Positions 17,557 to 39,638 of a stretch of DNA of 64,000 nt are shown here, piece after piece. The stretch spans positions 18,266 through 82,265 of the forward strand of contig JAGOKN010000002.1 of the NCBI GenBank assembly GCA_017994575.1. The letters are read 5' to 3'. Position 1 is the stretch's first letter, and each line of letters begins with the position of its first letter. The position numbers were made by a program, and so were the translations under genes. Source of the stretch: Nitrosomonas sp. Its GTDB lineage: Bacteria > Pseudomonadota > Gammaproteobacteria > Burkholderiales > Nitrosomonadaceae. The notes under the pieces are model-generated. The model made no database searches. It saw only the letters and a list, made by a program, of their open reading frames with translations, and was not told where the DNA came from.

Positions 17557-17699
17557 GGAAACGCTGATTAATTCGGCGAACGAGATGAAGCACGAGGCGC
17601 ACGGAACGCAGTAACCGAGACATATCAACATGATAGGCGAGGGAGCGAGTACCGCGCAACGAAGTGATTCGCTTGTACAGTCAATTAATCAGCGTTTCC
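17557..17699. mobile_element. 143-bp MITE, copy 1, with TTAG target duplication
   Basis: The element begins GGAAACGCTGATTAATT and ends with the exact reverse complement of these 17 bases. It is flanked by TTAG on both sides (17553-17556 and 17700-17703). It matches the copy at 36233-36375 at 141 of 143 positions. A YTAR 4-bp duplication is the target habit of the IS5 group, so an IS5-type transposase is the likely mover. The right TTAG duplication overlaps the stop codon of the PhoD-like gene. Confidence 0.92.
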
Positions 17700-21926: not shown

Positions 21927-22284
21927 TTTGCTGCTCCTTGCTGTCGTTCATTCCAGGAGGATTCCTGATGGAATCAATGTACGCAGGTTAATGTGAACAG
22001 AAACTGAATGAAGCAAAGAACAATCAAGAGATCTCTGCATAACTGTATTTTTGAGCTTTTCTGTTCATTCCCATCATAATTAAATCAAATGCTTACAGAG
22101 TTTGCGCATTCGATAAAGCCAGTTATGCAGAGGTCTCTTGAAAAGTTTCCAGAGTCGTGCGCAGCAATTTTCTACTCGAGGATTCTAGCGGCTGCCAATC
22201 GGCGGGTTGACCCTAATTGAGGGGATTATCTGGCTTTTCGCAGCAATAGTCTTGGGTAAATTACTGGTAAAAATGATTCCAGAA
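21927..22284. other. Gap holding an inverted-repeat element
   Basis: No gene is seen in this 358-base stretch. It contains the 118-bp inverted-repeat element at 22024-22141. The remainder up to the RAYT gene shows nothing I recognise. Confidence 0.5.
22024..22141. repeat. 118-bp element with 22-bp terminal inverted repeats
   Basis: TCAAGAGATCTCTGCATAAC starts it, and the right end mirrors 21 of the 22 terminal bases (one mismatch). The ends resemble the GAGACCTCTGCA-type termini of IS5-family elements and are close to the end at 28901-28920. No target duplication is obvious. It is too short to code, so it is probably a MITE or a solo pair of ends. Confidence 0.65.
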
Positions 22285-23133
22285 TCAAGAATCCTTGTTC
22301 TTACGAACAATAACCCCAACAGTCGTCGGGTGCAATTGATAGTATTCTCCGATTTCTCGTTGGCTATATGCACCGGTTTTGTAAGCGGCAATAATCGCTG
22401 CTTTGTGGTCTTTGTGCTGCGCTGCAATCTCAGACAGAGGCTTTGCAATCGGCCGCTTTTGCTGCTGGGGTATATTTAAATCGCCCTTTTCTTTCCCGAT
22501 TCTTTTCTGCATTTCAGTGACGAAATCGGCATCCCCTAAATAAATTTGTCCCTTCAAATTCGACCAGATTTCAGGTTGATGTTGCACACCTTCCAGGACA
22601 AATTGTCGGTATTTTTCCGTTGCAATTCTCCTTTGTTTCCCAAACAAAGACAAAATCCAATCCGTTGTCAGCCATTCGGGTTTGGCAGCATTTCCAGACA
22701 TTGCCGGATAACTGCTCCACGGCCAGTCTTCAAGCCGATTGACCATGCCTTTGGCTCTTAACGGATTCAGCACAACATATCGGGAAAGTTCAAGCAAATA
22801 ACGATCTTTATCCACCAGAATTGCTTTGTAACGTCCTTGAAAAAGATGGCCGCTACGTCCATGCCGACGATTCGACGCTTGGGTATAAACGCCATTGAGC
22901 TGGCGCATACCTTTTGACAAATTGCCGTCAAGCGTTTCAATGATCAGATGATAATGGTTATCCATCAAGCAATAACCATGGCACAGCCAGTTATGATCAG
23001 TCACAACCGACCCAAGGATTTCTAAAAACCTTACCCGGTCATCATCATCTTCAAAAATAGCTTCGCGGCGATCTCCACGCGATGTGACGTGGTAAAGCGC
23101 ATTCGGAAATTCTAATCGGAGTGGTCTTGTCAT
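22285..23133 (-). CDS. REP-associated tyrosine transposase (RAYT), intact copy A
   Basis: About 282 residues starting MTRPLRLEFPNALYHVTSRG, the typical start of RAYT/TnpA_REP proteins (an extra four codons lie upstream to 23145). The Y1 transposase core is complete: HUH motif in MDNHYHLIIET, catalytic Tyr in QLNGVYTQASNRRHGRSG, then LFQGRYKAILVD and LELSRYVVLNPLRAKGMV. A C-terminal helix-turn-helix-like part (SQREIGEYYQLHPTTVGVIV) follows. RAYTs cut and join single-stranded DNA at REP palindromes. Two damaged relatives lie on the other strand downstream. Confidence 0.93.
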   Translation of the reverse strand: MTRPLRLEFPNALYHVTSRGDRREAIFEDDDDRVRFLEILGSVVTDHNWLCHGYCLMDNHYHLIIETLDGNLSKGMRQLNGVYTQASNRRHGRSGHLFQGRYKAILVDKDRYLLELSRYVVLNPLRAKGMVNRLEDWPWSSYPAMSGNAAKPEWLTTDWILSLFGKQRRIATEKYRQFVLEGVQHQPEIWSNLKGQIYLGDADFVTEMQKRIGKEKGDLNIPQQQKRPIAKPLSEIAAQHKDHKAAIIAAYKTGAYSQREIGEYYQLHPTTVGVIVRKNKDS

Positions 23134-23155
23134 GGTCTGCAGCATACATCAATTT

Positions 23156-23177
23156 TTCTTGATTCGCGACCTGACCC
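23156..23177. repeat. Outer end repeat of RAYT copy A
   Basis: It begins TTCTTGATTCGCGACC and ends CTGACCC. Its reverse complement matches the left end of copy B at 24323-24344 across all 22 bases. The opposite end of copy A (about 22275-22290) keeps CAGAATCAAGAA but lacks the outermost bases. Confidence 0.75.
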
Positions 23178-23220
23178 TTTCGTTCCGGCTGACAAAAACA
23201 AAAAGATCGGGATTCAGTAC

Positions 23221-23254
23221 TAAAAAAAACAAACCCCGCTGTAGCAGCGGGGTT
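23221..23254 (-). terminator. Rho-independent terminator of the PEP-CTERM gene
   Basis: On the minus strand a perfect ten-base stem AACCCCGCTG / CAGCGGGGTT with a CTA loop is followed by TTGTTTTTTTT. It lies 30 bases after the stop of the PEP-CTERM gene. Confidence 0.93.
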
Positions 23255-23283
23255 CAGTGACATGCTGCCAGATAAAAATCAGT

Positions 23284-24187
23284 TTATGCCGTTTCCTTCC
23301 TGCGGCGTACAGCAAAACCCAGCAACCCCAATCCGGCCAATAACATGGCATAGGTCATCGGTTCAGGAATAGGAGGAGGTGGTGGTGTAAAAGGATCGGT
23401 GATAGCCATCGCGTATTCGTAACCAAAGCTGATGGATTGGTTATTAGCGATGGTACCCAGATCATAGGCCAGGTTGATCGACCGATCGAAGAATCCATAG
23501 TTATCAGGCAACTGTCCCGCAGTCAACATCAGGTGAGGATCAACCGGGACACAACAACTGGAAGGATCAACATAAGCGACAGTATTTGCCGGTCCACCAA
23601 TCAAGTCTGCCAGCGTGAGCGCCCAACCATCCGGGCTTGTGGCAGTTACCGAGGCGCCGTCCCCTAACGCGTTAATTACGTTGCGTGTTTCATAACCAAA
23701 GCCCGCCGGTATGCCTTGGTCCGGATCAATACCGACACCCCACTCAACATCCGTCGCGGCAGCTCCGGTATTGTTCGTCAGTTGAACCTGAACAGCAACG
23801 TGCCCGCTCGAAGGAATGGTAATCCTCTCGATGATTGACCAATCGCTGCCGGGGTTGCTCGTAACAAGTATCGAACCGTCAATATCAGTGATCGCAGTAG
23901 AAGCAAATGGATTGGATTCACCATCTTCATTAGCAATTCCGGCAGACAATCCATTCGCATTGAGCGACCAATTGGACGAAAAAGTACCGAGGTTGACAAA
24001 TTCCCTATCCATAAAACTTAAGCCGAAAATACCCGTAGCGGAAAAATAACCGGCATCTGCAATTGTAGCGGATGTATCAACTCCGTTTGTAATGACGGTA
24101 GGTGCAGTGTGCGCAGTGATCGCAAACACTACCCAGCGCTATTGTTACCAGTTGCGCGAGATATTTTTTCTTTAATCTGGATTCCAT
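23284..24187 (-). pseudogene. PEP-CTERM surface protein, frameshifted after the signal peptide
   Basis: The body (frame open 23284-24129) is a beta-rich, Gly/Asn/Ser-rich exported domain that ends in PPPPIPEP, a hydrophobic helix and RRRKETA, the PEP-CTERM signal cut by exosortase. A matching start is in another frame: ATG 24187, after a perfect AAAGGAGT site, reads MESRLKKKYLAQLVTIALGS and then runs out of frame at a TTT run (24124-24126). Removing one T joins it to AITAHTAPTVITNG, a normal signal peptide. So the gene needs a -1 correction: a real mutation, a slippage switch, or a sequencing error. It has its own terminator and is flanked by RAYT copies A and B. Confidence 0.85.
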
Positions 24188-24322
24188 ATCTTTTACTCCT
24201 TTCATTAGATTACTGGATTACTTGGACTGACCATTGATGTGGAACCTATCAATCAAATTTTTCAAGCCACGTCAACATCCTGATTATAACTGTAAAACAA
24301 AATCGTAAGAAGAACATAAATA

Positions 24323-25120
24323 GGGTCAGGTCGCGAATCAAGAAAATAGGCGTATACTGTGAGCTATGACAAGACCACTCCGTTTAGAATTTCCGAATGT
24401 GCTTTTTACCACGTCACATCGCGTGGAGATCGCCGCAAAGCCATTTTTGAAGATGATGATGACCGGTTGCGGTTTCTAGAGATTCTTGGGATGGTTGTGG
24501 CTCAATGCCGTTTATCGTCGGCATGGACGTAGCAGCCATCTTTTCCAAGGACATTACAAAGCAATCCTGGTGGATAAAGATCGTTATTTACTTGAGCTTT
24601 TCCGTTATGTTGTGCTGAATCCGTTAAGAGCCAAAGGCATGGTCAATCGGCTTGAAGATTGGCCGTGGAGCAGTTATCCGGCAATGTCTGAAGATGATGC
24701 CAAACCTGAATGGCTGACAACGGATTGGATTTTGTCTTTGTTTGGGAAACAAAGGAGAATTGCGACGGAGAAATACCTGCAATTTATCCGGGAAGGCGCG
24801 CAACATCAACCTAAGATCTGGTCGAATTTGAAGGTGAAAATTTATTTAGGGGATGCCGCTTTCGTAAATGAAATGCAGAAAAGAATCGGCAGGGAAAAGG
24901 ACGATTTAAATATACCCCAGCAGCAAAAGCGGCCGATTGCGAAGCCTTTGTCTGAGATTGCAGCGCAACACAAAGACCGCAGAACCGCGATCATTGCCGC
25001 CTACAAAACAGGTACATACAGCCAATGAAAAATCGGGGAGTACTATCAATTGCATCCAACGACAGTTGAGATTCTTCTTCGTAAGAACAAGGATTCTTGA
25101 TTCTGGACCTGACACCTATT
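24323..25120 (+). mobile_element. RAYT element copy B with both ends
   Basis: The left end (GGGTCAGGTCGCGAATCAAG from 24323) and right end (25094-25115, reverse complement GTGTCAGGTCCAGAATCAAG) are inverted repeats with three differences over 22 bases; flanking AAATAGG/CCTATTT extends the match outward. The element encloses a broken RAYT gene. It lies between the PEP-CTERM gene and the carbonic anhydrase gene. Confidence 0.75.
24366..25100 (+). pseudogene. RAYT transposase, inactive copy B
   Basis: It starts MTRPLRLEFPNVLF as in copy A, then shifts frame because of two extra T bases (CTTTTTACC against CTTTACC). A deletion after about codon 40 removes the whole HUH region and the stretch up to the catalytic Tyr. 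The remaining frame from about 24486 keeps HGRSSHLFQGHYKAILVD to TGTYSQ; there a CGA codon has become TGA. Without the His pair it cannot cut DNA. Confidence 0.9.
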
Positions 25121-28366: not shown

Positions 28367-28794
28367 AAGACTCCTGCACAACCTCTCCTGCCAATTAGAG
28401 CGAAATGATACATTTCGAAGCAGCGATCGATGGTGCGCATATCGAGGCGAATCGGGTGTATGCGGACAAGGGATCGGCCAGTAATGCCAATCGACAGTTT
28501 TTAAGAAAGCAAAAGATCAAGAGCGCAATCATGCATCGCGCGTACAAGAACAAACCACTATCGGTGCGCCAGAAGCTGGCGAACCAATTGGTCAGCAAAA
28601 AACGCTACATTGTCGAACAGTGTTTCGGCACAATCAAACGCTTATTCAAAATGGGACGCGCCAGCTACTTCGGTACGGCAAAAGTCAACGCCCAAGTCAT
28701 ACTGAAAAGTATCTGCATGAATCTGAAAAAAGCAGCCAACAAAATCTTCGTAGATCAACCATTAAGGGGAGCAATCCGTCCTAATGTTGCATAA
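28367..28794 (+). mobile_element. IS5-family element remnant 2
   Basis: Its left end AAGACTCCTGCACAACC (28367-28383) equals the left end of remnant 3 at 30615. About 20 bases later the coding frame begins in the last third of the transposase (28405-28794: IDGAHIEANRVYADKGSAS, then VEQCFGTIKRLFKMGRASYF), so the first two thirds have been deleted. It sits inside remnant 1. The right end may be GCGATTGTGCAGAGGTCTTG at 28901-28920, which could also belong to remnant 1. Confidence 0.8.
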
Positions 28795-28900
28795 GAGGGG
28801 GAAGCTCCCCTAAAAAAGGAAAAAAACTTCACTTTCTGCCAAAATGACGTGCAATCAGCGTCATTTGGAAATTTTTCTTTGTCACTACAGCTAAATTCTC

Positions 28901-28920
28901 GCGATTGTGCAGAGGTCTTG
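28901..28920. repeat. IS5-type right terminal repeat
   Basis: GATTGTGCAGAGGTCTTG is the near reverse complement of the left end AAGACTCCTGCACAACC. It lies 55 bases upstream of the catalase start and may affect its expression. Confidence 0.6.
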
Positions 28921-28974
28921 TCATATGTATCATGTTTACCGACACACATCACGTACCACGATAGGAAAAACACC

Positions 28975-30436
28975 ATGAGCGATAAAAAGAAATTAACGAC
29001 AAATGCTGGTTGCCCCGTTGCCGATAACCAGAACGTAATGACAGCCGGAGCGCGCGGACCACAGTTGCTACAGGACGTTTGGTTTTTAGAGAAACTAGCG
29101 CACTTTGATAGAGAAGTTATCCCAGAGCGGCGCATGCATGCAAAAGGTTCTGGTGCGTATGGTACGTTTACTGTTACGCACGACATCACCAAGTACACGC
29201 GAGCCAGAATATTTTCCGAAATAGGCAAGAAAACAGATTTGTTCACCCGTTTCACCATAGTGGCAGGTGAGCGCGGCGCAGCTGATGCTGAACGCGATAT
29301 TCGCGGCTTTGCTATGAAGTTCTACACGGAAGAGGGAAATTGGGACTTGGTAGGCAACAATACGCCTGTATTTTTCTTGCGAGATCCCCTTAAATTTCCA
29401 GATCTTAATCACGCGGTGAAGCGCGACCCACGCACTAATCTTCGCAGCGCGAAAAACAACTGGGACTTCTGGACTTCATTGCCAGAAGCGCTGCATCAAA
29501 TCACCATTACCATGAGTGAGCGAGGAATTCCGGCAACCTATCGACATATGCATGGCTTCGGGAGTCACACATTCAGCTTCATCAATTCACAGAATGAGCG
29601 TCACTGGGTAAAGTTTCACATGAAATGCCAACAGGGAATCAAAAACCTGAGTGATGCAGAAGGAAGCTGAAGCTCTCATCGGTAAGGATCGAGAAAGCCA
29701 TCAGCGGGACCTTTATGGAAGCATTGAGAAAGGTGACTTTCCGAAGTGGACAATGTATATCCAGATCATGCCAGAAAAGGAAGCATCCACAATTCCTTAT
29801 CATCCTTTTGATCTCACCAAGGTGTGGCCGCACAAGGATTACCCGCTCATTGAAGTCGGAGTGATGGAGTTAAACCGCAATCCGGAGAATTTCTTTGCCG
29901 AAGTCGAACAATCGGCCTTTAATCCGGCCAACATAGTCCCCGGCATTGGATTCTCTCCAGATAAGATGTTGCAGGGCCGTTTATTTTCCTACGGTGACGC
30001 ACAGCGGTACCGGCTTGGTGTAAATCATCATCTTATCCCGGTCAATGCGCCACGCTGTCCTGCACACAGCTACCACCGTGATGGCGCCATGCGTGTTGAT
30101 GGCAATTACGGTAGCACATTGAGTTATGAGCCGAACAGTTACGGAGAATGGCAGGAACAATCAGATTTCAATGAGCCGCCTCTCGCCTTGAATGGTGCAG
30201 CGGATCACTGGAATCATCGCGAAGATACGGATTACTACTCACAGCCTGGCGCTCTGTTTAGATTAATGACACCAGAACAGCAACAGATATTGTTTGAGAA
30301 CACCGCCCGTTCCATTAGCGGTGCGCCTCGTGACATTCAAATCCGTCATATCGGCAACTGCCTTAAGGCCGACCCCTTATACGGTGCAGGTATAGCCAAG
30401 GCATTGAATATTACATTGAGTGAAGTACCGAAGTAA
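28975..30436 (+). pseudogene. katA: Monofunctional heme catalase, frameshifted by a 4-bp duplication
   Basis: Two frames together give a complete small-subunit catalase: 28975-29670 ([20 protein letters not shown] to GIKNLSDAE) and 29651-30436 (from [20 protein letters not shown] to the end). The first holds the distal heme-side motif around [20 protein letters not shown]; the second holds the proximal heme ligand region [18 protein letters not shown]. At 29659-29666 GAAG is repeated in tandem; removing one copy restores [11 protein letters not shown] and a 485-residue protein of normal length. As it stands the protein ends before the heme Tyr and would be inactive. AGGAAAAA precedes the start. 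Hydrogen peroxide removal would be its role if reverted. Confidence 0.92.
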
Positions 30437-33827: not shown

Positions 33828-35588
33828 ATGACTCAAGTTGTTGAAATAAAAATTCCCGATATCGGCGATTTCAAGGATGTTCCTGTGATTGAACTATTCG
33901 TTGCGCCGGGTGATAAGGTTGAAAAGGAAGCTTCACTGATCACGCTGGAAACTGACAAGGCCTCGATGGAAGTTCCATCTCCTCAAGCGGGTGTCATACA
34001 GGCAGTCAAAGTCAAAGTTGGCGACAAAGTATCCGAAGGTTCGGTCATTCTGACCTTGGCAGTAGCGGATCAGGTCACAACTTCGATCAACACGGAAAAC
34101 AACACGCCGGCAGCCAGTGATAGAACAGTGGCTACACCCGCTGCAAACGCAGAACCCCAAGCAGCAACCATTCCCACAGGCGATATTCACGCTGAAGTGG
34201 TGGTGCTTGGCGCCGGACCCGGTGGCTACACTGCCGCTTTCCGTGCAGCTGATCTGGGCAAAAAGGTAGTGCTCATCGAGCGTTATGCCACGCTAGGCGG
34301 CGTGTGCCTGAACGTCGGCTGCATCCCTTCCAAGGCCCTGCTGCACGCGGCCAAGGTCATCACGGAAGCTGAAGATGTGGAATCGCACGGCATCGTGTTT
34401 GGGAAGCCGCAGATCGATATCAACAAGCTGCGCACCTGGAAAGAATCAGTAATCGGAAAACTGACCAAGGGTCTGAAAGCACTTGCCAAACAGCGCAAGG
34501 TCGAAGTCGTGCACGGCACCGGAAAATTCATCACCCCCCACTTAATTCAGGTTGAAACTGCTGATGGTCAAAAAACGATTTCTTTTGATCATTGCATTAT
34601 TGCAGCCGGCTCCAGCGTCGCGCGCATTCCCGGTTTTCCTTATGATGATCCACGCCTGATTGATTCCACCGGAGCGTTGCAACTGCAAGATGTGCCTGAA
34701 CATCTGCTGATCATCGGCGGTGGCATTATCGGGTTGGAAATGGCCACGGTATATTCGGCGTTAGGCAGCAAAATCAGTGTAGTGGAATGGATGGACCAAT
34801 TGATTCCGGGTGCTGATCCCGATCTGGTCAAGCCATTACACCGGCGCATCAAGAAACGTTATGAAGCCATTTATCTGAAAACCAAGGTTACCCGGATTGA
34901 AGCCAATGAATCCGGACTGACAGTAACCTTTGAAGGAGAAAATGCGCCGGAAACGCAAACCTATGATCGTATTTTAATGGCGGTTGGGCGTCGCCCGAAT
35001 GGACGCAATATCGGCGCTGAAAACATCGGCATTCACGTCGATGAACGCGGCTTCATTCCGGTAGATCAACAATTGCGCACCAATTTACCGCACATTTTCG
35101 CGATCGGTGATATCGTAGGCGAACCCATGCTGGCGCATAAAGCCACCTATGAAGGTAAACTGGCAGCTGAGATTATTGCCGGGCACAAAGCCATCTTTGA
35201 CGCACGCACCATTCCTTCTGTAGCCTATACAGACCCTGAAATTGCCTGGATGGGTTTAACCGAGAAAGATGCGATCAAGCAAGGCATTGATTATGAGAAA
35301 ACCAGCTTCCCCTGGGCAGCCAGTGGCCGAGCCATCTCCATGGCCCGTGAAGAAGGACTGACGCAATTATTGCTGGATAAACAGACACGCCGCATACTGG
35401 GCGCTGGCATGGTGGGTATCAACGCGGGGGAATTGATTGCCGAGACGGTACTGGCCCTGGAAATGGGCGCAGACATGGAAGACATCAGTCTGACCATTCA
35501 TCCTCATCCCACATTGTCGGAAACAGTGTTATTTGCTGCCGAAATGGCGGAAGGAACTATTACTGATCTTTATATACCAAAGAAATAA
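33828..35588 (+). CDS. lpdA: Dihydrolipoyl dehydrogenase with N-terminal lipoyl domain
   Basis: A 586-residue E3 subunit of 2-oxoacid dehydrogenase complexes that reoxidises dihydrolipoamide with FAD and NAD. The first about 80 residues are a lipoyl domain with the modified Lys in ETDKASMEVP; an Ala/Pro/Thr-rich linker follows, then the flavoprotein with the FAD motif LGAGPGGYTAAFRAADLG, the redox disulfide GGVCLNVGCIPSK, the NAD motif IIGGGIIGLEMA and the C-terminal His-Glu pair in HPHPTLSE. ATG 33828 has AAGG before it; a TTG 18 bases upstream is less likely. No aceE or aceF adjoins it. Confidence 0.96.
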   Translation: MTQVVEIKIPDIGDFKDVPVIELFVAPGDKVEKEASLITLETDKASMEVPSPQAGVIQAVKVKVGDKVSEGSVILTLAVADQVTTSINTENNTPAASDRTVATPAANAEPQAATIPTGDIHAEVVVLGAGPGGYTAAFRAADLGKKVVLIERYATLGGVCLNVGCIPSKALLHAAKVITEAEDVESHGIVFGKPQIDINKLRTWKESVIGKLTKGLKALAKQRKVEVVHGTGKFITPHLIQVETADGQKTISFDHCIIAAGSSVARIPGFPYDDPRLIDSTGALQLQDVPEHLLIIGGGIIGLEMATVYSALGSKISVVEWMDQLIPGADPDLVKPLHRRIKKRYEAIYLKTKVTRIEANESGLTVTFEGENAPETQTYDRILMAVGRRPNGRNIGAENIGIHVDERGFIPVDQQLRTNLPHIFAIGDIVGEPMLAHKATYEGKLAAEIIAGHKAIFDARTIPSVAYTDPEIAWMGLTEKDAIKQGIDYEKTSFPWAASGRAISMAREEGLTQLLLDKQTRRILGAGMVGINAGELIAETVLALEMGADMEDISLTIHPHPTLSETVLFAAEMAEGTITDLYIPKK

Positions 35589-35694
35589 CTGATCAATTCG
35601 GGCGGAGCTGAATATTGGCTCCATCCCCAAAGACGCCCGGCTGACTCCAAGTGACTGCAAACAATACCATGACTATCCACTTCTTAAAGAATAT

Positions 35695-36102
35695 ATGATG
35701 GCTGTAAAAAAACCTTACTTGATTGGATTCGCATTAATCCTGATCTTATGTAGTGTCATGCAGAATGCATTGGCAACACATATCTCAAAACCAATACTGA
35801 CCGACCCCAAAACAGACTATTCCGTTGGAAATACCATCACGTTGCACGGCTGGGTTGAATATAACGAAAAGCCGATTCCTGACGTTCTACTCAATTTCAA
35901 ACTAACCCGACCTGATGGAACAGTAGCCGTTGACCGGTCCTATCCGAGCAATGAGAAAGGACAGTTTGAATTTCTGTTTGACACAAAAAATGAAGTGGCC
36001 GGTACCTATCAAATCACCATTACCTCTCATTGCCTGGAAATGCATCGATACGCTTGCACCTATCAAAATCAAACACTGCTGATCCAATTGCACAATCCAT
36101 AA
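35695..36102 (+). CDS. Exported Ig-like beta-sandwich protein
   Basis: A 135-residue protein with a signal peptide ending near MQNALATHIS. The mature part is one beta-sandwich: VGNTITLHGWVEYNEKPIPD, VLLNFKLTRPDGTV and YQITITSHC, similar to the MG2/Ig-like domains that carry extracellular binding surfaces. Two Cys (SHC, YACTY) may pair. No function can be assigned. It precedes the retropepsin operon by 44 bases on the same strand and may be part of it. Confidence 0.68.
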   Translation: MMAVKKPYLIGFALILILCSVMQNALATHISKPILTDPKTDYSVGNTITLHGWVEYNEKPIPDVLLNFKLTRPDGTVAVDRSYPSNEKGQFEFLFDTKNEVAGTYQITITSHCLEMHRYACTYQNQTLLIQLHNP

Positions 36103-36146
36103 AACGTGCCCTATTTGACTGAATAACCTCAAGGATTCCGAGTGAC

Positions 36147-37100
36147 ATGGCGATGCTGCTCACTCATAAAAGAAGAAAAATAATAGACCGCATGAAGATT
36201 GATTATCCACCCTCGATTAAAATGCGCCCTAAGGAAACGCTGATTAATTCGGCGAACGAGATGAAGCACGAGGCGCACGGAACGCAGCAACCGAGACATA
36301 TCAACATGATAGGCGAGGGAGCGAGTACCGCGCAACGAAGTGATTCGCTCGTACAGTCAATTAATCAGCGTTTCCCTAACCTCCTGCTGGTTGGGCTGAC
36401 ACTGCTCACACTATCCGCGTGCAATCCCCGAGAAGACGAATTAGCGGCACGCGAGGCCTCCATCAGTGCCAGAGAATCAGAATTGGTGACGCTACTTGCT
36501 GAGATGGTTGAGCAGAAAAAATCACTGGACAAGCTGCAGGCTGATAAATCACTCAATTTAAAAGAGAATGGAAATTCCTATAACACGCAGCTCAATCCAT
36601 GCAATCCAAACAGCACGGATACCTCCAAGAACGCGCAATCCGTTCTCGCCGGTACGCGCACAATATTGGGGGGAGTGGAAAATATATATCTTAATCCACC
36701 GGGTTTGGAATTCACTGCACGCATTGATACGGGCGCTCAAACATCCTCTCTGAATGCGCTTGATATTGTCGAATTTGAGCGCGACGGAAAACCTTTTGTA
36801 AAATTCAAAATTATCCACCCCAAAACCGGTGAGAAAATAGAATTAACGCGACGTTTGCGCCGTCATGCACTCGTCAAGGAACGCAATAATCGTGAATCGC
36901 AGCGACGGCCTGTGGTCAGGATGCGGGTGGAACTTGCTAATATCAATGAGCATATCAATTTCACACTGGTTGATCGCGGCAGGCATAAACATCAGATTCT
37001 GATCGGACGTAACTTATTAAGAGACTTGGCCATCGTCGACGTCAGTAAAAAATTCACCACGGTTAGAACCGATAATCCAGAAAACGGCACTGCAAAATAA
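36147..37100 (+). CDS. Retropepsin-like lipoprotein (RimB / Zn_protease family) with MITE in its N-terminus
   Basis: A 317-residue frame. The C-terminal half is the RimB-type domain once called ATP-dependent zinc protease, now seen as retropepsin-like: ILGGVENIYLNPPGLEF, ARIDTGAQTSSLNA with the catalytic DTGA, and HQILIGRNLLRDLAIVDVSK. A coiled-coil stretch with repeated REAS/RESE precedes it. The N-terminus contains 49 element-derived codons between MRP and NLLLVGL; without them it reads MRPNLLLVGLTLLTLSAC, a perfect lipoprotein signal. Which start is now used is unclear: 36147, 36192, 36222 or the element-internal ATG 36306. Its stop overlaps the next start (TAATG). Confidence 0.85.
   Translation: MAMLLTHKRRKIIDRMKIDYPPSIKMRPKETLINSANEMKHEAHGTQQPRHINMIGEGASTAQRSDSLVQSINQRFPNLLLVGLTLLTLSACNPREDELAAREASISARESELVTLLAEMVEQKKSLDKLQADKSLNLKENGNSYNTQLNPCNPNSTDTSKNAQSVLAGTRTILGGVENIYLNPPGLEFTARIDTGAQTSSLNALDIVEFERDGKPFVKFKIIHPKTGEKIELTRRLRRHALVKERNNRESQRRPVVRMRVELANINEHINFTLVDRGRHKHQILIGRNLLRDLAIVDVSKKFTTVRTDNPENGTAK
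36233..36375. mobile_element. 143-bp MITE, copy 2, inserted in frame, CTAA target duplication
   Basis: The same 143-bp unit as 17557-17699 (two differences), with 17-bp perfect terminal repeats, flanked by CTAA at 36229-36232 and 36376-36379. Element plus one duplicate is 147 bases, so 49 codons are added without a frame change. In the frame of the host gene copy 1 has TAA where this copy has CAA. Confidence 0.93.
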
Positions 37101-38647
37101 TGTACGCAAAACTTAGGTTATACATGCTGGTTTTCCTAATCATGGGATTAGGAATAGGTCTGACGATGTATAAGCATTTTGCACTGGGATTTCCTTTATC
37201 CCCTGATGACAAGAAATCAGTCTGGACTATTGAGGCCAGAATCGACTTCGTCGCGCGCGGAGATCCTGTCATTGTCTCCTTTGCGCTTCCTCCCAAAGCC
37301 AAAAATATCGTTTTTATGGAAGAAGATTTCGCCTCACCCGATTATGGATTTAGCGAATTGACTCCACCGACTGGGCGTCGCGCACAATGGAGCAAAAGAA
37401 CCGCATCTGGCCCTCAAACAACCTACTATCGTTTGAGTGTCTATGAAAAAGATAATATCTCCCAATCGCTTAGCTCTGATCTTCCGGCAGAACCCGAGAA
37501 GCCGGAATTTGATGAAGTCATGAAAACGGCCGCCACGACGCTATTGGATCAGGTGCGCAGCAGATCGGCCAATACCGAGACTTTCACGCGCGAATTGATC
37601 AATACATTAAATACCAACACGCCCAGTCAAAATCAGAGCTTGTTGCTGAACGAACAATCCAGCGAAGATTATAAAACCCACTTAATCGTTAATTTACTGG
37701 CATTGGAGAACATCAGTGCGCGTATTGTGCGTGGATTGTATCTAAAAGACGGCCGACGCAGGCAATCGCTTGCCAATTTTGTTGAAGTTTATATTGGCGG
37801 CCAATGGCTCTTGTTCAACCAGAATACTGGCGAGCATGGCAAACCCAAGAATTTCCTGATTTGGCAACGCGGAGATCAATCTTTACTGGATGTGGTGGGT
37901 GGCAAAAACTCACAAATTTCCTTCTCGATCATCAAAAATATTCACCCAACCAGGAATCTGGTGGTACGAGACAGCATGAACAGACAGGCTGGCATCATGG
38001 ATTTTTCAATCTACAGTCTACCGATCGAGCAACAAAATGCATTTAAAATGATTCTGCTATTACCTATTGGCGCATTGATTGTCGTCATCATGCGACTGCT
38101 CATCGGCATACGCACTTCCGGCACATTTATGCCCATTTTAATTGCCCTCGCGCTGATACAGACCACATTGGTGACCGGCATCATCATTTTTCTGACCGTC
38201 GTTGGCACGGGACTGCTGATTCGATCCTACTTATCACGCCTCAATCTATTGTTCGTTGCGCGTATCTCGGCAGTCATCATCGTCGTCATCGCGATCATGG
38301 CCAGTATCAGCATTATCAGTAACAAACTGGGACTCGATCAGGCCATGACGGTCACTTTCTTCCCCATGATCATTCTGGCTTGGACTATTGAGCGCATGTC
38401 CGTGTTGTGGGAAGAAGATGGCCCGCGCGAAGTTTTTATCCAGGGCGGCGGTAGTTTATTGACGGCAGTGATCGCTTATTTGTTCATGACCAACCGCACC
38501 ATTGAATATTTAACTTTCAATTTTCCCGAATTAATGCTGGTTAACTTGGCCTTTATCCTGATCCTCGGACAATATACGGGTTATCGGTTATCCGAGTTAT
38601 ATCGCTTCCATTCTCTGGAAAGACGCAATGTTTCTGGCCAGCGCTAA
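37100..38647 (+). CDS. Inactive transglutaminase fused to seven-TM domain
   Basis: A 515-residue inner-membrane protein. One helix is near residues 7-24; a periplasmic region follows with a transglutaminase-like fold (about residues 150-260: NLLALENISARIVRGLYL, NFVEVYIGGQWLLFNQNTG) that lacks the catalytic Cys. The second half has about seven hydrophobic segments (starting FKMILLLPIGALIVVIMRLL). This matches the 'inactive transglutaminase fused to 7 TM helices' family, which always travels with an ATP-grasp ligase and a retropepsin. It overlaps both neighbours, so the three are coupled in translation. The role is unproven; it may present a peptide substrate in the envelope. Confidence 0.88.
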   Translation: MYAKLRLYMLVFLIMGLGIGLTMYKHFALGFPLSPDDKKSVWTIEARIDFVARGDPVIVSFALPPKAKNIVFMEEDFASPDYGFSELTPPTGRRAQWSKRTASGPQTTYYRLSVYEKDNISQSLSSDLPAEPEKPEFDEVMKTAATTLLDQVRSRSANTETFTRELINTLNTNTPSQNQSLLLNEQSSEDYKTHLIVNLLALENISARIVRGLYLKDGRRRQSLANFVEVYIGGQWLLFNQNTGEHGKPKNFLIWQRGDQSLLDVVGGKNSQISFSIIKNIHPTRNLVVRDSMNRQAGIMDFSIYSLPIEQQNAFKMILLLPIGALIVVIMRLLIGIRTSGTFMPILIALALIQTTLVTGIIIFLTVVGTGLLIRSYLSRLNLLFVARISAVIIVVIAIMASISIISNKLGLDQAMTVTFFPMIILAWTIERMSVLWEEDGPREVFIQGGGSLLTAVIAYLFMTNRTIEYLTFNFPELMLVNLAFILILGQYTGYRLSELYRFHSLERRNVSGQR

Positions 38648-39638
38648 GAAACTCAGGAGTTTTGGCATCATTGGAATGAACCAAAGAAACTTTGGTTTGA
38701 TTTCCCGCTATAACCCGCGCCATTTATACCCGCTCGTCGATAATAAACTAAAAACCAAACTGTTGGCGCAGCAAGCAGGTATTACCGTGCCTAAACTACT
38801 TGGCACGATGGAATATCAACATGATGTTAAGTCGCTGAAGGAAATTCTCCGTCCACACGCTCAGTTTGTTATAAAACCGGTTAAAGGCAGTGGTGGCAAA
38901 GGTATTTTGGTAATTACCGAACATGACCACAACCGCTATTTCAAACCCAGTGGTGATGCGATTCAGTTGGCGGATATTGAGCGGCATGTATCCAATATCC
39001 TGAGTGGCTTGCATAGTTTGGGTGGCAAGCCCGATATGGTAATGATTGAGTCGTTGATTCAACTTGATCCCGTTTTTGCTGATTTTAGTTATGAAGGCAT
39101 TCCTGATCTGCGCATAATCGTGCTCAAGGGCTATCCCATCATGGCAATGCTGCGGCTGACTACCCATGCGTCCGACGGTAAAGCAAATTTGCATCAGGGT
39201 GCGGTTGGTGTCGGCATTGATATGGGAACCGGCAGAGCATTACACGCTGTTCAATATGGCGCACCTGTTTCGTATCACCCGGATACTCGCAAGACTTTCT
39301 CAGATCTCGTCGTTCCCCATTGGGACAAACTGCTGCGATTGGCAGCCGCCTGCTACGAGATGACAGGCTTAGGGTATCTTGGCGTGGATATTGTATTAGA
39401 CAGGGATCAAGGGCCAATGATCATCGAGCTCAATGCACGTCCGGGACTTTCCATTCAGGTAGCCAATTCTGCCGGTCTGGCTCCGCGTGTTGCAGCAATT
39501 GAGGCGCTCAAAGACATAGAACCCGATCCTCAATTGCGCGTTATTTTTAGCAAGCAACAATTCTCAGCAGAACCAAGCCGTTATCCTCCACGTCAGTTAC
39601 GCACTCGAAGCACTGATTCGCCGAAAATCATTACCTAA
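38628..39638 (+). CDS. ATP-grasp alpha-L-glutamate ligase-like amidoligase
   Basis: A 336-residue cytoplasmic ATP-grasp enzyme of the RimK-related E-ligase group. It starts with the family pattern KLRSFGIIGMNQRN and LYPLVDNKLKTKLLA; the ATP-binding FVIKPVKGSGGKGILVI and the metal-binding MIIELNARPGLSIQ are intact. Such enzymes join amino acids, often glutamate, through amide bonds. It overlaps the 7TM gene by 20 bases. Together with the retropepsin and the 7TM protein it forms a complete amidoligase module that may build and trim a peptide or modify a protein in the envelope; the substrate is unknown. Confidence 0.9.
   Translation: MFLASAKKLRSFGIIGMNQRNFGLISRYNPRHLYPLVDNKLKTKLLAQQAGITVPKLLGTMEYQHDVKSLKEILRPHAQFVIKPVKGSGGKGILVITEHDHNRYFKPSGDAIQLADIERHVSNILSGLHSLGGKPDMVMIESLIQLDPVFADFSYEGIPDLRIIVLKGYPIMAMLRLTTHASDGKANLHQGAVGVGIDMGTGRALHAVQYGAPVSYHPDTRKTFSDLVVPHWDKLLRLAAACYEMTGLGYLGVDIVLDRDQGPMIIELNARPGLSIQVANSAGLAPRVAAIEALKDIEPDPQLRVIFSKQQFSAEPSRYPPRQLRTRSTDSPKIIT

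Follow-up and report, generated by a model that had tools for sequence, protein, structure and literature searches.

Short mobile repeats that are translated as part of host proteins are already known from several bacterial groups. In particular, the Rickettsia palindromic elements (RPE) are palindromes of about 150 bp that carry an open frame and are inserted in frame in unrelated genes (excerpts of PMC10969869 and PMC2229807). The enterobacterial RU-1 (ERIC) and Yersinia RU-2 repeats are likewise MITE-like sequences that continue in frame into a predicted exported protein, of which they form the front; according to an excerpt of PMC2759123, YPO1552 owes part of its predicted signal peptide to RU-2, and, as an excerpt of PMC2229807 has it, this repeat supplies residues 1-30 and encodes many hydrophobic residues. 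In Coxiella, the MITE families QMITE1 and QMITE2 show some in-frame insertions in ORFs; the duplications of QMITE2 span 7-11 nt of variable sequence (excerpt of PMC5896051), whereas the MITE considered here duplicates 4 nt, YTAR. A search of the open-licence literature found no paper on a Nitrosomonas MITE; the MITE-like repeats of PMC10907252, an article that also mentions Nitrosomonas, are located in Thiohalocapsa. By analogy with the RPE, RU-1/ERIC, RU-2 and QMITE fusions, the Nitrosomonas case appears to be an addition to a known class of events.

The element lies in a stretch of 64,000 nucleotides (the window) of a Nitrosomonas sp. genome, G000, which is a MAG of 2.86 Mb in 147 contigs with 85.8% completeness. 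It is a MITE: at 143 bp it is too short for a transposase, it ends in terminal inverted repeats, it is flanked by a CTAA duplication that is single at the empty site, and it has many dispersed copies. Insertion sequences of the IS5 type use a 4-bp YTAR target, so that YTAR duplications of this length are common to them and to the MITE. Together with one CTAA the element adds 147 bp, that is, 49 codons, and the ORF 36147-37100 is open right across it. As the earlier note on this DNA had stated, in silico removal of these 147 bases restores ...MRPNLLLVGLTLLTLSAC, and the element sits in frame within the signal-peptide region of a predicted lipoprotein. The comparison with a locus lacking the element, which the same note had recommended, yielded an exact empty site, with one CTAA and otherwise collinear, in the closest relative G075 (Nitrosomonas sp. 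RBC050, CADEDO010000046.1, locus L043), the host proteins of the two genomes being 94% identical. Two other copies in G000 are identical to the element over all 143 bp. Since these copies are identical and the empty site is clean, the simplest reading is that the insertion is recent and occurred on the G000 branch. The insertion itself is certainly beyond chance. As RNA, the element is predicted to fold with -60.7 kcal/mol, as compared to a mean of -33.95 in 200 shuffles (z -7.9).

Table 1. Coordinates of the features in the window and loci of the other accepted in-frame MITE fusions in the genus (G, genome; L, locus)
Feature	Window position, or locus and genome	Strand	Remarks
Window copy 1 of the MITE (L018)	17557-17699	+	Target-site duplication TTAG; private TAA 17612-17614
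Alternative upstream start, ATG	36147-36149	+	Best anti-SD match, -5.2 kcal/mol; Cys 92
RloA-like retropepsin lipoprotein gene (predicted), MITE in frame	36192-37100	+	302 aa from ortholog-supported ATG 36192, Cys 77; element-free 253 aa, Cys 28
Left target-site duplication CTAA (YTAR)	36229-36232		Read directly; single copy at the empty site
MITE	36233-36375	+	143 bp; perfect 17-bp terminal inverted repeats GGAAACGCTGATTAATT; open frame 36234-36374, 47 codons
Element codon 19, CAA	36288-36290	+	Family state, not a reverted stop
ATG within the element	36306-36308	+	Cys 39; apex of predicted RNA hairpin
Right target-site duplication CTAA	36376-36379		Read directly
Hydrophobic core and lipobox LSAC	36381-36422	+	Cys codon 36420-36422; by eye, and by pattern in orthologs
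RloB-like gene (inactive transglutaminase, 7 TM helices)	37100-38647	+	515 aa
RloC-like ATP-grasp gene	38628-39638	+	336 aa; TIGR02291 above cut-off
Fusion: M48 lipoprotein	L312 (= L261), G027
Fusion: BBP2 porin	L371, G035		Start is one of several plausible
Fusion: Alginate_exp protein	L347 (= L211), G035
Fusion: PBP-like exported protein	L302, G020		Pfam match below cut-off
Fusion: MnmE	L300, G020
Fusion: AMMECR1	L301, G020
Fusion: O-methyltransferase	L304, G020
Fusion: PolX-like polymerase	L306, G018
Fusion: MsrB/SelR	L311, G032
Fusion: M28 peptidase-PDZ protein	L307, G059

The host appears to be the first gene of an rloABC-like operon. Its protein matches the retropepsin/Zn_protease domain (PF05618, 3.4e-30, 105.2 bits at a cut-off of 27), and the neighbourhood by which an RloA is recognised, with adjacent 7TM_transglut and ATPgrasp_ST genes, is there, both downstream genes being full-length. 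None of the NCBIfam RloA models was reached at cut-off, the best, RloA3, giving 92.5 bits against 210, which is why we call the gene only RloA-like; the NCBIfam RloB model, similarly, gives 402 bits for the downstream gene, less than its cut-off of 900. The RloA proteins of Pseudomonas aeruginosa bear signal peptides and are required during hypo-osmotic stress; its triple rloA mutant has a growth defect that is rescued by loss of rloB or rloC (excerpt of PMC12239564). Since rloB and rloC are intact here, a dead rloA might be costly, if the analogy extends to another genus. One homologue of the host gene was found in G000; given that this genome is an incomplete MAG, a second copy may be missing, and the insertion may be polymorphic.

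Where does translation of this gene start? An ATG stands exactly 28 codons before the lipobox cysteine in 18 of 29 ortholog loci (e.g. MRIAHSSFTKICRNYPIITFALLMLSAC); for L057 and L071, the lipoboxes of which were not matched by the pattern, this was established by eye. Among the 27 loci where the pattern found the box, it reads LSAC in 17, and an ATG at 28 is lacking in 8-9 (seven have one at 26-32 and one has none). With the element set aside, ATG 36192 is also exactly 28 codons before the cysteine (MKIDYPPSIKMRP/NLLLVGLTLLTLSAC), the n-region being split by the element after codon 13. The signal peptide of 18 residues that the earlier note had reconstructed is correct as a sequence, but its beginning, MRPN, is not the likely native N-terminus, which the orthologs place at ATG 36192.

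We favour a working start upstream of the element, which would be either 36192 or 36147. The opposite suggestion, made in the earlier note for ATG 36306, is that the element itself gives the working start, either there or at ATG 36261, both of which are in frame, so that a leader of 38 or 53 residues would precede the cysteine and translation from the native start would be negligible. The predicted pairing with the anti-SD is, indeed, better at these two codons (-3.0 and -2.1 kcal/mol, respectively) than at 36192 (-1.0) or 36222 (0.3), yet the best pairing is that of 36147 (-5.2), with 36153 at -3.1. Furthermore, 36306 is at the apex of the predicted hairpin, whereas 36192 and 36147 are outside it. 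Element codon 25, to which this ATG corresponds, is ATG in 30 of the 39 aligned G000 copies and AAG in most copies of other genomes, so that the codon was not gained at this locus. Taken together, these data make a start within the element unlikely. With a start upstream, the n-region would comprise 63 or more residues, a length that may slow or block export. Unlike RU-2, the Nitrosomonas MITE would merely lengthen the n-region, with the native core and lipobox kept, and its exact empty site is known.

The openness of the frame calls for a census of the family. With 40 of 60 candidates scored, G000 contains at least 42 matches to the element, of which 39 are full or near-full, one is partial and two span 31 bp; a protein-level search yields at least 49. 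Across the genus, where at most 10 candidates were scored in each genome, matches at E 1e-8 are present in at least 43 of 85 genomes. Identical YTAR tetranucleotides flank 112 of 194 distinct near-full copies; the other 82 are without them. The earlier note took a stop codon to have been lost in this particular copy, since the CAA found here corresponds to TAA in window copy 1, and offered selection of the frame as one of two readings. The difference at 17612-17614 is real, but its direction is the reverse: codon 19 is CAA in 35 of 39 aligned G000 copies (CAG in two, a gap in one and TAA in copy 1 alone), and over all loci surveyed it is CAA in 211 and TAA in five of 243 distinct copies, 63 of which came from a search favouring the open peptide. 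CAA is thus the family state, and the TAA arose in copy 1 rather than being removed from this copy; ancestral CAA in other copies is just what the note itself had named as speaking against its reading. With the two identical copies elsewhere in G000 added, selection of the frame through stop loss at this locus is extremely improbable.

The frame is open in 29 of the 39 aligned G000 copies, with indels in six and stops in four, so that openness is the norm in this sub-family. Only one of the six frames of the copy at 36233-36375 is open, namely, the one used when insertion occurs in codon phase 2 and plus orientation; the other three combinations of phase and orientation contain stops. As YTAR sites in the ORFs of the window fall almost equally in phases 1 and 2 (193:191 in 46 chosen ORFs of at least 360 nt), about one in four intragenic insertions of this sub-family would leave the gene open. 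Therefore, the open frame is not by itself beyond chance.

The locus can be envisaged to have arisen as follows. A family member jumped into the rloA-like gene, within the n-region of its signal peptide, and the gene stayed open because 147 bp were added in total and the phase-2 frame in this orientation is free of stops. Ribosomes would start upstream of the element, at ATG 36192 or 36147, and melt the hairpin during elongation, yielding a pre-protein in which 63 mostly hydrophilic leader residues (78 from 36147) precede the unchanged hydrophobic core and lipobox. Lipidation and cleavage would strip the whole leader, so that the mature lipoprotein would be unchanged and the insertion tolerated, with selection acting chiefly as a filter against gene-breaking insertions. 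We consider it probable that a multi-copy MITE has, in this way, recently entered the n-region of a gene that retains its native upstream start and its mature product. The M48 lipoprotein of G027 has the same arrangement, with an SD and an ATG upstream of the element and with element-free orthologs, and was counted in favour of this account.

The length and hydrophilicity of the n-region and the perfect-ended hairpin right after the start could also point to a loss-of-function allele, in which export fails or the hairpin, which RNase III may cleave, reduces the amount of message, the gene being on its way to a pseudogene; the insertion would then be too recent for visible decay. Against this, the frame is intact and the G000 branch is without an excess of amino-acid changes. 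Specifically, the downstream part of the host gene has dS 0.166, dN 0.030 and dN/dS 0.18 between G000 and G075, and the changes polarised with four outgroups are five amino-acid and six silent on the G000 branch as compared to three and seven on that of G075. There is no clear excess of amino-acid change, and the insertion is too young for a powerful decay test. In addition, an in-frame copy of only 89.5% identity resides in the only M48 lipoprotein match (E 1e-40) of the single-contig genome G027. We regard loss of function as rather improbable.

The earlier note saw here a rare case of mobile DNA at the front of an exported protein; the case is not isolated, as ten further in-frame fusion sites were accepted in the genus (Table 1). 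The candidates were 12 among the open matches listed with a stop-free frame of at least 163 aa, one more place, and others met during the survey. Including the rloA-like gene, there are at least 11 accepted sites, and in ten of them the host part matches a Pfam model at its cut-off; several of the hosts were named, and their native starts placed, by eye. Ten of the 11 fusions have a plausible start no more than about 40 codons away and, as judged by eye, five are in or just past the signal-peptide region; an SD-like sequence and an ATG before the element were seen, also by eye, in L301, L304, L306, L311 and L312. The element-free form is evidenced for three hosts, the rloA-like gene, the M48 lipoprotein (orthologs such as MKLRLLCALSIIMTLTAC) and the M28-PDZ protein; for the remaining eight we infer it. 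The repeated in-frame insertion in unrelated genes that characterises the RPE is seen here too, and the size and palindrome are similar, a likeness by description in another host. Unlike the RPE, the fusions in Nitrosomonas are near N-termini in all but one of the accepted cases, and most examined copies lie outside genes.

Several candidates were rejected by eye: L024, L119, L196, L305 and L308, where the open frame extends upstream of an apparent native start located further down, L303, L309 and L310, which have a doubtful start or no recognisable gene, and L002, which is a fragment. The open L140 and the open frames in the short ORFs L010, L234, L022, L003 and L108 were left out of the count.

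The M28-PDZ protein carries the MITE in frame at the same inter-domain place in three genomes (L307/L313 in G059, L314/L156 in G074, L315 in G032). A query of 218 residues gave some match in 73 of 85 genomes, element-only matches included, but among the genomes listed it was matched whole only in these three, the others showing the two flanks as separate adjacent pieces. The element part has dN/dS of 0.60-1.33 versus 0.08-0.18 for the flanks, so that there is no evidence for a conserved MITE peptide, and selection on the peptide encoded here was rejected. The dS of the element (0.03-0.18) is lower than that of the flanks (0.43-0.70), hence one old shared insertion is not proven; a shared old insertion, conversion and parallel insertion could each underlie the trio.

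Is there a sign of selection in where the copies land? Among 26 aligned copies of G027, 19 have a stop at codon 41, three have other stops and three have indels; the single copy left, open and free of indels, is that inside the M48 lipoprotein. Landing sites were surveyed in G000, G042, G035 and G027 (the best 30 loci at most for the last three), giving 74 copies with clean duplications and long flanks. An ORF of at least 150 aa is touched by 26 of these, 16 at the stop codon, six open inside and four closed inside. By eye, three of the six open ones are truly intragenic (the rloA-like gene, L261 = L312 and L211), and L024, L196 and L002 are not or are fragments; of the closed ones, L190, L014 and L233 precede the native start and L026 is in an apparently spurious frame. 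If one insertion in four stays open, three open copies out of three intragenic ones would have a chance of 1/64, but this figure is weak, as the calls were made by eye and the sub-family of G027 is mostly closed. Outside the four genomes counted, closed insertions occur near the 3' ends of genes, 19 codons from the stop in L106 and three codons in L090. The pattern fits removal of gene-breaking insertions and, in view of the dN/dS of the M28-PDZ element, not selection for the peptide.

The MITE is often found exactly on a stop codon, with the YTAR duplication restoring the stop, as in L018, L040, L015, L209 and L246; L018, which is window copy 1, occupies the stop codon of an ORF on the minus strand that stays open for 499 codons or more. 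For ORFs of at least 100 aa this applies to 20 of the 74 copies (16 at the limit of 150 aa), as compared to a background of 10 at stops out of 148 YTAR sites located at stops or in the intervals between ORFs (P 6e-8 and 3e-5, respectively); the background comes from this window alone, for which the ORF length limit was set slightly higher.

A broader scenario is that this one MITE family recurrently becomes a translated leader, n-regions and N-termini serving as landing pads that tolerate 49 residues, and that genic copies keep the frame while the family at large loses it. The capacity to form leaders would follow from the structure, as 143 bp plus a 4-bp duplication make a multiple of three and a palindrome can keep one frame open. 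We put this forward tentatively, being more inclined to doubt it than to accept it; if true, mobile DNA would recurrently supply the front of exported proteins. The locus in any case offers a clean natural experiment, with a single element, a close relative that has the exact empty site and a host that would depend on the altered segment for its export. It makes testable what length of n-region is compatible with a lipoprotein signal, whether ribosomes pass a hairpin of -60 kcal/mol soon after the start, and whether free-living bacteria recurrently gain new leader peptides from mobile elements inserted at N-termini.

An autonomous IS5-family partner with the same ends was not found in G000 (exact pattern) or in G027 and G026 (one mismatch), nor did any of the three contain an IS-length pair of ends without MITE partners. 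The DDE transposase remnants at 28405 and 30989 of the window carry no MITE-type ends and were dismissed as parents, as was the pair of ends 955 bp apart in L116, which comes from a MITE and another short element lying on either side of a gene. This other short element (L116:2836-2955) has similar ends (GGAAACGCTGAATTATTC...) and a different core, and is perhaps a second MITE family. A promoter within the MITE was likewise discarded, the region 35600-36500 having two promoter-like matches and one terminator-like match versus shuffle means of 1.5 and 0.9; no known RNA family reached the gathering score in 35500-37200.

Two other places in the window deserve mention. At 22269-25107, there are two inverted copies of a REP-associated tyrosine transposase gene, 91% identical over 594 nt (NF047646, 74 bits at a cut-off of 80), and between them an ORF which, by eye, has a PEP-CTERM-like tail at its end. 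At 28849-30436, a catalase-like gene is apparently split into two overlapping ORFs in different frames, by a frameshift or a sequencing error, the first ORF resembling, below cut-off, the N-terminal part of the catalase HPII model.
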